Shown one piece after another: positions 63 through 51,466 of a stretch of 64,000 nt of DNA (its first letter is position 1; every line of letters begins with the position of its first letter). The stretch covers positions 434,001 through 498,000 of the forward strand of contig NZ_SNWW01000003.1 in the NCBI RefSeq assembly GCF_004362015.1, read 5' to 3'. The translations under genes were made by a program, and so were the position numbers. A model generated the notes under the pieces. It had not been told where the DNA came from and searched no databases. It saw only the letters and a list, made by a program, of their open reading frames with translations. Origin of the DNA: Flavobacterium chryseum (GTDB lineage Bacteria; Bacteroidota; Bacteroidia; Flavobacteriales; Flavobacteriaceae).

Positions 63-125
63 TTTGGAATTTGGACCCGGAGATAGAAAATTGGAATTTG
101 GAATTTGGAATTTGAAATTTAAAAA
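63..125 (-). repeat. AAATTCC heptamer repeat 3' of the GLPGLI gene
   Basis: On the plus strand there are three consecutive GGAATTT units (93-113) followed by GAAATTT (114-120), a clean 7-base period, with further GGAATTT at 66-72. Read on the minus strand, this is TTTAAATTTCAA followed by AAATTCC repeats lying immediately after the stop codon of the GLPGLI gene. The same order of elements follows the stop codons of rodA (34358-34404) and rpoD (51315-51378). Confidence 0.75.
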
Positions 126-12230: not shown

Positions 12231-12391
12231 GATTGTAGTCCCGAATTCTCGGGATAGATTTTAGATTGCAGATTGTGCAATACGAAATCTAAAACCAACA
12301 TTTGATTCACTTCAAAATCTAAAATCAATAATCATTTTAGATTTCAATTTTAAAAAAATCTGAAATCTAAAATCTAAAATCTAAAATTATT
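12231..12391. repeat. AAATCTA heptamer repeats between etfB and etfA
   Basis: Directly after the etfB stop lie a TCCCGA/TCGGGA palindrome (12239-12254) and several copies of TTTAGAT and its complement ATCTAAA. Units at 12315-12325 and 12334-12344 form a perfect 11-bp hairpin with an 8-base loop. From about 12358 to 12387 the units AAATCTG, AAATCTA, AAATCTA, AAATCTA follow each other with a strict 7-base period and stop just before the etfA ATG at 12392. The whole intergenic segment is made of this repeat. Confidence 0.8.
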
Positions 12392-14148: not shown

Positions 14149-14264
14149 TTTTAAGGCTGTAAGCCATAAGCTTTAGGCTGTAAGCTTAAAGCGAAAAATA
14201 TTAAAAACAAGCTATGAGCCTTAGGAAAAAGCCTAAAGCTTAAAGCCTAAAGCTTAAAGCAGTC
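14149..14264. repeat. AAGCTTA/AAGCCTA heptamer repeats before thyA
   Basis: The gap between the DUF151 gene and thyA consists of AAGC-based units. AAGCTTTAGGC (14168-14178) is the exact complement of GCCTAAAGCTT, which occurs at 14231-14241 and 14245-14255. The right-hand copies run TAAAGCT, TAAAGCC, TAAAGCT, TAAAGC with a 7-base period and end four bases before the thyA ATG. This has the same design as the AAATCTA and AAATTCC elements but a different unit. Confidence 0.8.
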
Positions 14265-17853: not shown

Positions 17854-18573
17854 ATGAAAAAAACAGTAATCTTACTTTTATTAGTCTTAACGACAAACGG
17901 ATATTCGCAATTTGCTAAAAACATGTTTAGCAAGGATCCTATTATTAATCTCGAAAACTGGCAAAAACAACGCCTTTATTTTGGCTATTATTTAGGCTTT
18001 AATAATTTCGACTTTAAATTTGATTACAAAACTCCAATAGCTCAAGATATTCAGGTTAAAAAAACTACTGGCTTTAATGTTGGTGTTGTTGCTGATTTAA
18101 GATTGCAGGAATATATTAATTTACGTTTTGAACCAGGTTTATATTACACAAAACGTGATTTATATTATCCTGAATTATTTGAGCAAGGCGAAAGTTCTTA
18201 CTTGAGAGAAGTAAGCAGTACTTATATTCATTTTCCTTTATTATTAAAATTCTCCTCTCTTCGAACAGGAAACATTCGTCCGTATTTAGTTGGAGGAATG
18301 TCGACTACGCTAAATTTATCCGCGAACTCAAAATCTAAAGATGATAATTTTGAAGGAAAGTTTAGAGTAAAACCGTGGACTGCAGCTTACGAACTTGGTT
18401 TTGGAATCGATATTTTCTCAGAATATTTTATTTTCTCTCCTTCCATCAGAGGAATGTTTGGTATTACGGATGAATTAATTCGTGATAATCCCGCAAATGG
18501 GCCTAGTGCATGGACAGATAATATTGATTCTATGAAATCGAGAGCGATTTTAATAAATTTCACTTTCCATTAA
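17854..18573 (+). CDS. sprT: Type IX secretion / gliding protein SprT (PorT family)
   Basis: A 239-residue outer-membrane protein with a signal peptide (residues 1-19, ending NGYSQ) and a run of amphipathic beta-strands typical of an eight-stranded PorT-like barrel. Segments such as LYFGYYLGFNNFDFKFDYK and FEPGLYYTKRDLYY and the terminal Phe-Thr-Phe-His fit. PorT (SprT in Flavobacterium johnsoniae) is needed for type IX secretion in Bacteroidota. The context next to menG, with tamL nearby, matches what I recall for flavobacterial sprT. The start is at 17854 (MKKTV); an upstream in-frame ATG lies within menG. Assignment rests on family resemblance and neighbourhood, so a generic porin-like protein remains possible. 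Confidence 0.75.
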   Translation: MKKTVILLLLVLTTNGYSQFAKNMFSKDPIINLENWQKQRLYFGYYLGFNNFDFKFDYKTPIAQDIQVKKTTGFNVGVVADLRLQEYINLRFEPGLYYTKRDLYYPELFEQGESSYLREVSSTYIHFPLLLKFSSLRTGNIRPYLVGGMSTTLNLSANSKSKDDNFEGKFRVKPWTAAYELGFGIDIFSEYFIFSPSIRGMFGITDELIRDNPANGPSAWTDNIDSMKSRAILINFTFH

Positions 18574-23031: not shown

Positions 23032-23114
23032 ATTTTAGATTACTGATTTCAGATTTTAGATTCCTTGAAGTCTAAAATCTGAAGTCTACAGTCTAAAATC
23101 TAAAATCTAAAAAA
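23032..23114. repeat. AAATCTA heptamer repeats between fbaA and accD
   Basis: Starting at the fbaA stop, the spacer carries TTTTAGATT units then the complementary series. TTCAGATTTTAGA (23048-23060) and TCTAAAATCTGAA (23071-23083) form a 13-bp perfect stem with a 10-base loop. The right side continues as AAGTCTA, CAGTCTA, AAATCTA, AAATCTA with a 7-base period right up to the accD ATG at 23115. This is the same family as the etfB-etfA spacer. Confidence 0.8.
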
Positions 23115-34357: not shown

Positions 34358-34404
34358 TTTAAATTTCAATCTTCTCAAGCCTCAGAATAAATTCCAAATT
34401 CCAA
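34358..34404 (+). repeat. AAATTCC heptamer repeat 3' of rodA
   Basis: TTTAAATTTCAAT (34358-34370), four bases after the rodA stop, is followed by two AAATTCC units (34389-34402). The same TTTAAATTTCAAT plus AAATTCC order follows rpoD (51315-51349) and, in reverse, the GLPGLI gene (63-125). Confidence 0.65.
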
Positions 34405-34415
34405 TTTTGATATAT

Positions 34416-34450
34416 AAAAAAATCCAAGTCATAACAGCTTGGATTTTTTT
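34416..34450 (+). terminator. Terminator of the mre-mrdA-rodA operon
   Basis: A 13-bp perfect stem AAAAAAATCCAAG / CTTGGATTTTTTT (34416-34428, 34438-34450) with a 9-base loop. Confidence 0.88.
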
Positions 34451-40920: not shown

Positions 40921-40928
40921 TATTTTTG
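40921..40928 (+). promoter_or_regulatory. -7 element of rpsO promoter
   Basis: TATTTTTG followed by CACCC matches TAnnTTTG, 56 bases before the rpsO ATG. Confidence 0.55.
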
Positions 40929-40983
40929 CACCCGTCTTACAAAAGATGTACGACATACATAAAAATCATTAAATAATATTGGA

Positions 40984-41250
40984 ATGTATTTAACTAAAGG
41001 AAAGAAAGAAGAGATTTTTGCTCAACACGGTGAAGCAACAAACACTGGAAAAGCTGAAGCTCAAATCGCATTGTTTACTTACAGAATTAGTCACTTAACT
41101 GAGCACTTGAAAAAAAATCGTCATGATTATAACACAGAGCGTTCATTAGTACTGTTAGTAGGTAAAAGAAGATCGTTGTTAGATTACTTGAAAAAGAAAG
41201 AGATCAACAGATATCGTGAGATTATCAAAGTATTGAATATCAGAAAATAA
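40984..41250 (+). CDS. rpsO: 30S ribosomal protein S15
   Basis: An 88-residue primary binding protein of 16S rRNA, helical throughout. Recognisable parts are GEATNTGKAEAQIALFTYRI, the loop HLTEHLKKNRHDY and LLVGKRRSLLDYLKK. The length is standard. It precedes pnp as in many bacteria, but a terminator lies between. Confidence 0.97.
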   Translation: MYLTKGKKEEIFAQHGEATNTGKAEAQIALFTYRISHLTEHLKKNRHDYNTERSLVLLVGKRRSLLDYLKKKEINRYREIIKVLNIRK

Positions 41251-50447: not shown

Positions 50448-51311
50448 ATGAGACAACTTAAAATCACCAAGCAGGTAACTAATCGTGAAACTGCATCGTT
50501 AGATAAATATCTACAAGAAATCGGAAAAGTTGACCTAATTACCGCTGATGAAGAGGTAGAATTAGCACAAAGAATAAAGGCTGGTGATCAAAGAGCTTTA
50601 GAAAAACTTACAAAAGCCAACCTACGTTTCGTAGTATCGGTTGCTAAACAATATCAAAATCAAGGATTAACGCTTCCTGATTTAATTAACGAAGGAAACT
50701 TAGGTTTAATTAAAGCGGCTCAACGTTTTGATGAAACTCGTGGTTTCAAATTTATCTCTTATGCAGTTTGGTGGATTCGTCAATCGATCTTACAAGCGCT
50801 TGCAGAACAATCACGTATCGTTCGTTTACCATTAAATAAAATTGGTTCTATCAATAAAATCAACAAAATGTATGCTTTGTTAGAGCAATCTAACGAACGC
50901 CCACCTTCTGCTGAAGAAATTGCAAAGGAACTTGATATGACTGTTAATGACGTAAAAGAGTCAATGAAAAACTCTGGTCGTCACTTATCTATGGATGCAC
51001 CTCTTGTTGAAGGTGAAGATTCTAACCTTTACGACGTTTTACGTTCTGGTGAATCTCCAAACCCGGACAGAGAATTAATTCACGAATCATTACGTACTGA
51101 AATTGAGCGTTCATTAGAGACATTAACTCCAAGAGAGGCAGATGTTGTTCGTTTGTATTTTGGTCTTGGAGATCAACACCCAATGACTTTAGAAGAAATT
51201 GGAGAAACTTTCGACCTAACCCGTGAGCGTGTTCGTCAGATTAAAGAAAAAGCAATCCGCAGATTAAAACATACTTCAAGAAGTAAAATTCTTAAAACTT
51301 ATTTAGGATAA
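50448..51311 (+). CDS. rpoD: Primary RNA polymerase sigma factor
   Basis: A 287-residue sigma-70 of the short Bacteroidota type. Region 1.1 and the large non-conserved insert are absent. Region 1.2 starts at [20 protein letters not shown]; region 2 has [20 protein letters not shown] and [17 protein letters not shown]; region 3 [13 protein letters not shown]; region 4.2 the helix-turn-helix [20 protein letters not shown]. This sigma recognises the TAnnTTTG -7 element seen throughout the window. A heptamer-repeat hairpin follows the stop. Confidence 0.96.
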
Positions 51312-51314
51312 AAA

Positions 51315-51378
51315 TTTAAATTTCAATATATTTAAATTCCAAATTCCAACTTTTATTGGAATTTGGAATTTTTCAACT
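51315..51378 (+). repeat. AAATTCC heptamer inverted repeat 3' of rpoD
   Basis: TTTAAATTTCAAT (51315-51327) is followed by AAATTCCAAATTCCAA (51334-51349), loop CTTTTA, and the exact complement (51356-51371), giving a 16-bp perfect stem followed by a short T-run. It can act as a terminator for rpoD but is built from the same 7-base units as the elements after rodA and the GLPGLI gene. Confidence 0.8.
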
Positions 51379-51436
51379 TTGGAATTTTACCGTAAACAAC
51401 AGTTTGATTGACTGTTCGTTTTTTGATTGATGATTG

Positions 51437-51466
51437 AAACTCCGGCTGATTACCGGAGTTTTTTAT
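51437..51466 (+). terminator. Second terminator downstream of rpoD
   Basis: A 9-bp perfect stem AAACTCCGG / CCGGAGTTT (51437-51445, 51453-51461) with a 7-base loop and T-run. Confidence 0.8.

Follow-up and report, generated by a model that had tools for sequence, protein, structure and literature searches.

What does the heptamer AAATTCC do behind the stop codons of Flavobacterium chryseum? In the window, by which we mean the whole stretch of 64,000 nucleotides that was analysed here, short arrays of this unit follow directly after three genes, and a reading made from the sequence alone had proposed a 3'-UTR element with a role in termination, mRNA stability or mobility. We examined the three gene ends, the distribution of the repeat in the genome and its counterparts in related and unrelated bacteria. 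The repeat is a real, dispersed and polar palindrome of heptamers located at gene ends; our best reading is that its two-armed form is a bidirectional terminator of low GC content and that its one-armed form is debris or a precursor.

AAATTCC arrays at the ends of rpoD, rodA and a Porph_ging gene

The three sites were present as described, with a head of the sequence TTTAAATTTCAA located 3' of rpoD, of rodA and of a gene on the minus strand, and with the array in the same orientation relative to the upstream gene each time. Pfam domains identified the genes as rpoD (Sigma70 r1.2, r2, r3 and r4), rodA (FTSW_RODA_SPOVE) and a member of the Porph_ging family, which we take to be the gene called GLPGLI in the sequence-only reading. 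The open reading frames of rpoD and rodA end at positions 51311 and 34354, and TTTAAATTTCAA starts at 51315 and 34358, respectively, leaving a gap of 3 nt in both cases; the Porph_ging frame on the minus strand ends at position 129 and is followed by TTTAAATTTCAA at 123-112, after a gap of 5 nt. The only window match at Rfam gathering scores was an S15-Flavobacteria ribosomal protein leader (40921-40986, plus strand, 68.1 bits). The features at the three gene ends are as follows:

51315..51326, plus strand: diverged heptamer at the outer edge, TTTAAATTTCAA, 3' of the rpoD stop codon; its AAATTTCAA pairs with the downstream TTTGGAATTT in the fold
51334..51349, plus strand: 5' arm after rpoD, two AAATTCC units followed by AA (sequence and fold)
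51356..51371, plus strand: 3' arm after rpoD, TTGGAATTTGGAATTT, perfect complement of the 5' arm, with a loop of 6 nt (sequence and fold)
51381..51387, plus strand: outer GGAATTT after rpoD, partner of the diverged head in the fold
51398..51424, plus strand: hairpin with T-run downstream of the rpoD slot, present in 26 of 30 rpoD orthologues whatever the content of the slot
51440..51464, plus strand: second terminator-like hairpin after rpoD, CTCCGGCTGATTACCGGAG with T-run
34358..34369, plus strand: TTTAAATTTCAA after the rodA stop codon
34389..34404, plus strand: one arm only, AAATTCCAAATTCCAA, 3' of rodA; not paired in the fold
34416..34450, plus strand: canonical terminator-like hairpin, 3' of the rodA copy
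93..123, minus strand: TTTAAATTTCAA with a triple AAATTCC array, 3' of the GLPGLI gene; no fold
66..72, minus strand: additional AAATTCC, 3' of the triple array of the GLPGLI gene

The perfect stem of 16 bp that had been noted after rpoD was confirmed, with AAATTCCAAATTCCAA at 51334-51349 paired to TTGGAATTTGGAATTT at 51356-51371. At this site, the outermost unit is AAATTTC in place of AAATTCC, and its partner in the fold is the last GGAATTT. A hairpin formed by these arms was found only in the rpoD copy and is thus not a property of all three sites: the double after rodA was 0% paired in the fold, and no fold was obtained for the GLPGLI copy (z=+0.54).

The head had been taken for a constant part of the element. 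We rejected TTTAAATTTCAA as a fixed head, since it occurs near chance on its own and the whole genome has only 6 places where it is found 30 nt or less from AAATTCC (8 overlapping matches, compared to 0 for a reversed control), of which 3 are the sites in this window. Alone, it is not enriched in the window, with 12 matches at up to one mismatch as compared to 9.9 expected, and contig C3 contains 7 exact matches versus 2.4-3.6 expected. TTTAAATTTCAA is a diverged outermost heptamer of the array, and its AAATTTCAA is also found in the rpoD slot of five relatives (G008, G015, G042, G057 and G060).

Abundance and placement in the genome

The exact double of the heptamer, AAATTCCAAATTCC, is present in 78 copies in the 5.0-Mb genome (41 forward and 37 reverse), as compared to a single copy of the reversed control, and AAATTCCAAA was found 8 times in the window versus 1.8 times expected, a number reached in none of 100 shuffles. 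In contig C3, which was analysed in full (571 kb, 33% GC, about 11% intergenic by our own gene calls), all 17 exact doubles are intergenic, and five control heptamers, when doubled, have no copies. The intergenic share is 27 of 28 for doubles with at most one mismatch and 38 of 62 with at most two. A variant unit, AAATCCCAAATTCC, was identified in 22 copies (control 0); it was observed as perfect AAATCCCAAATTCCAA...TTGGAATTTGGGATTT arms with A- and T-runs, and in a near-canonical form that consists of an A-run, TCCC, AAATTCC, AA, the loop, TT, GGAATTT, GGGA and a T-run. The full form of the element is AAATTYCAA, about 5-9 nt, AAATTCCAAATTCCAA, a variable loop, TTGGAATTTGGAATTT, about 5-9 nt and TTGGAATTT, with AAATCCC/GGGATTT as the variant unit.

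Placement was studied for 61 of the 78 AAATTCCAAATTCC matches, which form 41 clusters and represent all matches in contigs C1, C2 and C3 as well as stretches of C4, C7, C8 and C9 picked for holding matches. No cluster was located inside a gene. Nineteen were found between convergent genes, 21 between co-directional genes and only one between divergent genes, while convergent and divergent spacers account for 12% and 24% of the intergenic bases in C3 (P=6e-8 and P=2e-4, respectively); within C3 alone, 3 of 12 clusters are convergent (P=0.17). Forty clusters have a stop codon as neighbour. Their median distance to the nearest stop is 22 nt and the stop-proximal arm is AAATTCC in 32, the eight exceptions being located 19, 19, 40, 49, 54, 126, 138 and 270 nt from the stop. 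All 14 two-armed clusters (exact doubles in both orientations) run AAATTCC...GGAATTT. The association with stop codons that the sequence-only reading had proposed thus held for the sampled clusters of this genome, both in the avoidance of genes and in the orientation of the stop-proximal arm: the element lies about 20 nt after stops, mostly at convergent or co-directional gene ends.

Part of this pattern could arise without any function in the transcript. The AAATTCC arrays may be a selfish or neutral repeat that owes its spread to slippage and template switching, or else to a mobile process, and that survives only where it is harmless, namely 3' of genes, with the hairpins as a by-product. 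In co-directional spacers, the mean relative position of the clusters from the stop is 0.30 (P=3e-4 compared to a uniform distribution), but their median distance becomes unremarkable if the 60 nt before start codons are forbidden (P=0.125). Promoter avoidance remains an adequate null model for the co-directional spacers, and avoidance of these 60 nt could explain the positions on a neutral account. Neutral survival does not, however, predict the fixed polarity of the two-armed clusters, nor the lack of exact doubles in the genes of C3, given that AAATTCC arrays, as read from the unit, contain no stop codon in any frame. We regard this explanation as a serious one, although we give it clearly less than an even chance.

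Evidence for and against a role in termination

We consider it slightly more probable than an even bet, at roughly 0.55, that these strand-symmetric hairpins built from heptamers are bidirectional intrinsic terminators of low GC content where they have two arms, and half-copies elsewhere. The sequence itself is a member of a dispersed family of strand-symmetric AAATTCC palindromes. With both arms in place, the transcript is predicted to form an A/U-rich hairpin of 14-16 bp with a U-rich 3' edge, and this two-armed form would terminate transcription in both directions. Copies with a single arm, for example at rodA and the GLPGLI gene, would be half-built or decayed and without terminator function, and the copy after rpoD would at most be an extra terminator, located upstream of two others.

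The folds and the composition of the flanks are consistent with such a role. The mean z-score for fold stability was -3.8, with values below -2 for 28 of 40 segments, which may include nearby hairpins. Across 32 strand-sites, to which each convergent copy contributes both of its strands, T makes up 61% of the 8 nt that follow the 3' arm (0.365 in C3 intergenic DNA), and A makes up 56% of the 8 nt that precede the 5' arm (36-37% in spacers). The T-tail after the 3' arm is no stronger than the A-run on the opposite side: in the eight co-directional rows, T after the 3' arm and A before the 5' arm both account for 37 of 64 positions, and there is therefore no sense-side tail. At rpoD, the T-tail is weak (TTCAACTT). 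Among the 32 copies with AAATTCC first, a partner arm could not be recognised in 13, and in 9 less than half of the double is paired; the existence of single-armed copies is also expected for a neutral repeat.

Spacers between convergent genes, which were scanned with a simple terminator rule of our own, provide the main support for this reading. In the 19 that carry the element, a terminator-like hairpin containing AAATTCC or AAATCCC was found in 13, another terminator in 6 and none in 3, whereas the 46 spacers without a double contained another terminator in 33 cases, one with these units in 3 and none in 10. Other terminators are thus less frequent where the element is present (6/19 versus 33/46, P=0.005), also if only spacers of at most 250 nt are considered (4/15 versus 23/36, P=0.03). 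The same tendency was observed in relatives under a slightly looser hairpin rule that included the variant unit (1/4 versus 57/70, P=0.03), with only four spacers carrying the element. Such a replacement of other terminators is not predicted for a selfish or neutral repeat. At rpoD and rodA, on the other hand, other terminator-like hairpins follow the element, which is therefore not needed there.

Selection on the RNA was sought in the relative stability of the two strands, with a negative outcome. In 43 co-directional hairpins, several of which are orthologous to each other, the sense strand was no more stable than the antisense strand (22 lower, 21 higher, P=0.34), and this symmetry is in line with a neutral origin. 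In the rpoD slot, none of the 20 predicted pairs had changed on both sides among 9 sequences. An excess of G.U over A.C pairs in co-directional copies (32 versus 18) was disregarded because many arms were in the wrong register. Of the roles suggested in the sequence-only reading, termination is favoured by the convergent excess, the T-rich tails and the smaller number of other terminators; the more stable sense strand that an mRNA-specific role would predict was not found, and recent mobility is not supported, as described below.

In summary, the AAATTCC element resembles bidirectional intrinsic (Rho-independent) terminators in that a stable hairpin follows the stop codon, with A-rich sequence before and T-rich (U-rich in the RNA) sequence after it, and in the excess between convergent genes with fewer other terminators where the element is present; the arms at rodA and the GLPGLI gene form no such hairpin. 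It differs from them in its stem, which has a low GC content and is assembled from repeats of a single dispersed 7-nt sequence, and in the many AAATTCC-first copies that lack a recognisable second arm (13/32).

Related repeats and variation of slots between species

AAATTCC belongs to a larger class of intergenic repeats with units of 7 nt (and 8 nt). In the C3 spacers, 8-mers were repeated at a lag of 7 nt in 158 overlapping windows, as compared to 2.2 expected from five simulations under a third-order Markov model. Lags of 14 and 21 were also raised, as was a second series at 8, 16, 24 and 32; the period-8 series was observed beside the period-7 series in the C3 spacers (L041-L069). The 42 exact period-7 stretches in these spacers are composed of 18 units, with AAATTCC in 13 and AAAATCT in 9, and the others in one or two each. 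That many different heptamers are repeated within shared spacers counts in favour of the neutral account. In the window, other heptamers fill the following sites:

12355..12387, plus strand: intergenic array of the heptamer AAAATCT, in a slot that is AAACTTG-type in other species
14228..14260, plus strand: AAAGCCT/AAAGCTT heptamer array in an intergenic slot, with other fillings in other species
23066..23112, plus strand: AAAATCT heptamer palindrome in a slot with AAACCTG or CTGAACA types elsewhere

The co-directional spacers that contain them (12231-12391, 14149-14264 and 23032-23114) consist largely of palindromes of other heptamers, and 4-9 nt separate the end of the arrays from the next start codon. 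These families may therefore act on translation rather than on termination. A second palindrome, of the TGTCATTTCGACCGAAGGGAGAAATCAC type, was seen nested in or beside AAATTCC arms at two loci (L055, ~18354-18534; L060, ~18356-18500).

The gene rpoD was found in 59 of 61 genomes searched, and we compared the slot behind it in 30 genomes, including the one that contains the window. AAATTCC arms were identified in 9 genomes, AAACTTG/AAACATG palindromes in 3, a mixture of both in one (G017) and AAAGTCC-type units in 2; almost nothing was left in two genomes (G048 and G013), and the remaining 13 had other sequence or lacked the module. The hairpin module that follows the slot was present in 26 of the 30. 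The unit also varies between species in the slots at 54-128, 12231, 14149, 23032 and 34355, and among the seven slots orthologous to that of the GLPGLI gene an exact period-7 array was found only in G006, made from another unit. Since one slot often carries palindromes of different units across species, the sequence can be replaced while slot and hairpin shape persist.

On a tree of 10 species, inferred from 34 window genes, the contents of the four slots scored imply 4, 3, 4 and 4 changes, compared to a minimum of 2, 1, 2 and 2, with states assigned by eye and G008 left out at 14149. This variation is also expected for neutral repeats, and recombination that exchanged alleles between species could account for the homoplasy, with no need for a special process. 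Turnover of slots is not fast everywhere. The species G006 and G057, with 92% identical window genes, differ in the content of the rpoD slot and share its flanks. When 20 sites from G006 were fetched, 9 could be mapped in the stretches taken from G057 and 11 were not found there; 7 of the 9 mapped sites were occupied in both species, which lends no support to recent mobility.

We tentatively suggest that gene ends in Flavobacterium and other Bacteroidota hold lasting slots with interchangeable palindromes, drawn from families of 7-nt and 8-nt units (AAATTCC, AAAATCT, AAACYTG, AAAGCYT, AAAGTCC and CTGAACA) that might be swapped by a heptamer-copying process which keeps the polarity relative to the gene; we think that this is possible, with the odds rather against it.

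Mobile elements and recognition sites

Extragenic palindromes behind genes bring to mind REP elements, which are linked to a RAYT transposase, and two matches to the Y1_Tnp family were identified in the genome. If the AAATTCC element were of this kind, it should have been mobilised by such a Y1 transposase. The palindromic repeat that flanks the stronger match (L031) is a different one, GTCCCGTAGGGAC, no AAATTCC arms were present among the inverted repeats found at either locus (L031 and L032), and the loops vary among the copies compared. No link between the AAATTCC element and a transposase was found at these two loci, and we rejected an origin from a RAYT/REP system, which we consider very improbable, on the basis of the other palindrome carried at L031. 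The RAYT-like Y1_Tnp gene with its own GTCCCGTAGGGAC repeat (L031, ~1200-1500, in the region of G000:C11:103897) represents a separate REP-like family. The REP palindromes of 20-40 bp are characterised by a GTAG or CGTC tag at one end, according to the parts of PMC3733652 consulted; neither tag is present in the AAATTCC unit or in the arms AAATTCCAAATTCCAA and TTGGAATTTGGAATTT, and the copies share only the heptamers. The two have in common that they are dispersed extragenic palindromes near genes. As for signs of transposon-like insertion, the rpoD slots in G048 and G013 are almost empty, and no target duplication was seen by eye in the pair G040/G048.

Alternatively, the heptamer might be the target of a DNA-binding or DNA-uptake protein, comparable to the neisserial DNA uptake sequence (DUS), with the hairpin being secondary. 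The heptamer is indeed the part that recurs between the dispersed copies, and the passages of PMC2397512 available to us describe the DUS as a short dispersed motif of which inverted pairs form terminators, much like the inverted AAATTCC pairs at gene ends. A recognition function of this type nevertheless appears improbable, if a little less so than an origin as REP elements: the genome contains only 78 exact doubles, many other heptamers are repeated in the same manner, so that several motifs exist in parallel, and exact doubles do not occur in the C3 genes. Neisserial genomes contain about 2000 DUS copies each, far more than the number of AAATTCC copies.

AAATTCC clusters in other genomes

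The AAATTCC double is present in 86 of 121 genomes of the genus, with at least 20 copies in 26, of which 22 have a size of at least 4.6 Mb. One genome (G016) has a single AAATTCC double and 46 doubles of the reversed unit CCTTAAA, and in another (G097) all 20 AAATTCC doubles share one orientation and perhaps form one long array. In the phylum, the AAATTCC triple was identified in 18 of 395 genomes and the reversed control triple in 9. The case for a special status of AAATTCC in the phylum is accordingly weak, and these numbers argue that it is one amplified unit among several.

We also analysed at least 115 stretches from named genomes, all of which were chosen for a triple repeat, with 122 clusters among the matches listed. 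Among the 115 listed, a Flavobacterium contig gave the best match (80-87%), which fits the genus, as do the S15-Flavobacteria leader and the GC content of C3. With a crude caller of the longest open reading frames, 45 of the 122 listed clusters were placed inside frames (13/70 in Bacteroidota and 32/52 in other groups); the evidence for a strict avoidance of genes therefore comes from the genome studied here. Nine loci on contigs of candidate phyla (L086, L092, L095, L114, L116, L134, L142, L143 and L147) carry AAATTCC arrays within open frames of at least 636 nt, as called by this crude method. The polarity was also seen in other genomes: among the matches listed, AAATTCC came first in 38 of 47 clusters at most 60 nt from a stop codon, in 34 of the 38 that are intergenic and located in Bacteroidota (4 opposite), and 7 of 8 two-armed clusters read AAATTCC...GGAATTT, with one reversed.

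Relation to known repeats and implications

Tandem 7-nt units that are over-represented between genes are known from other bacteria, with TAACTGA (PMC4679880) and GGGAATC and GGGGA(C/T)T (PMC4692102) as examples, and both papers, in the parts consulted, cite the long simple sequence repeats of Mrazek. As far as these parts describe them, such repeats share with AAATTCC the 7-nt unit, the short and mainly intergenic arrays and a patchy taxonomic range. Carriers of TAACTGA include Bacteroidetes, and in the genome studied the repeats are mainly direct and located just upstream of start codons, according to the same parts of PMC4679880. In contrast to TAACTGA as described there, AAATTCC is a different unit that forms two-armed, inverted arrays after stop codons, and several families of units replace one another in each slot. 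The sections of a 2025 survey that we consulted report two Flavobacterium genomes rich in candidate palindromes (PMC12306157), which may include AAATTCC elements unnoticed. A literature search, judged by titles and with thin coverage of subscription journals, recovered no paper on AAATTCC repeats, and the passages of PMC9723704 at hand do not treat such repeats.

If gene ends in this group indeed hold lasting slots with interchangeable palindromes, part of the intergenic DNA would be a turnover system of modular gene-end hairpins rather than noise. Slots in which the same gene is followed by different units would then provide natural paired experiments on what termination needs in low-GC Bacteroidota. 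They would also offer a route to the process that spreads short repeat units, a question left open in the parts of PMC4679880 and PMC4692102 that we consulted.
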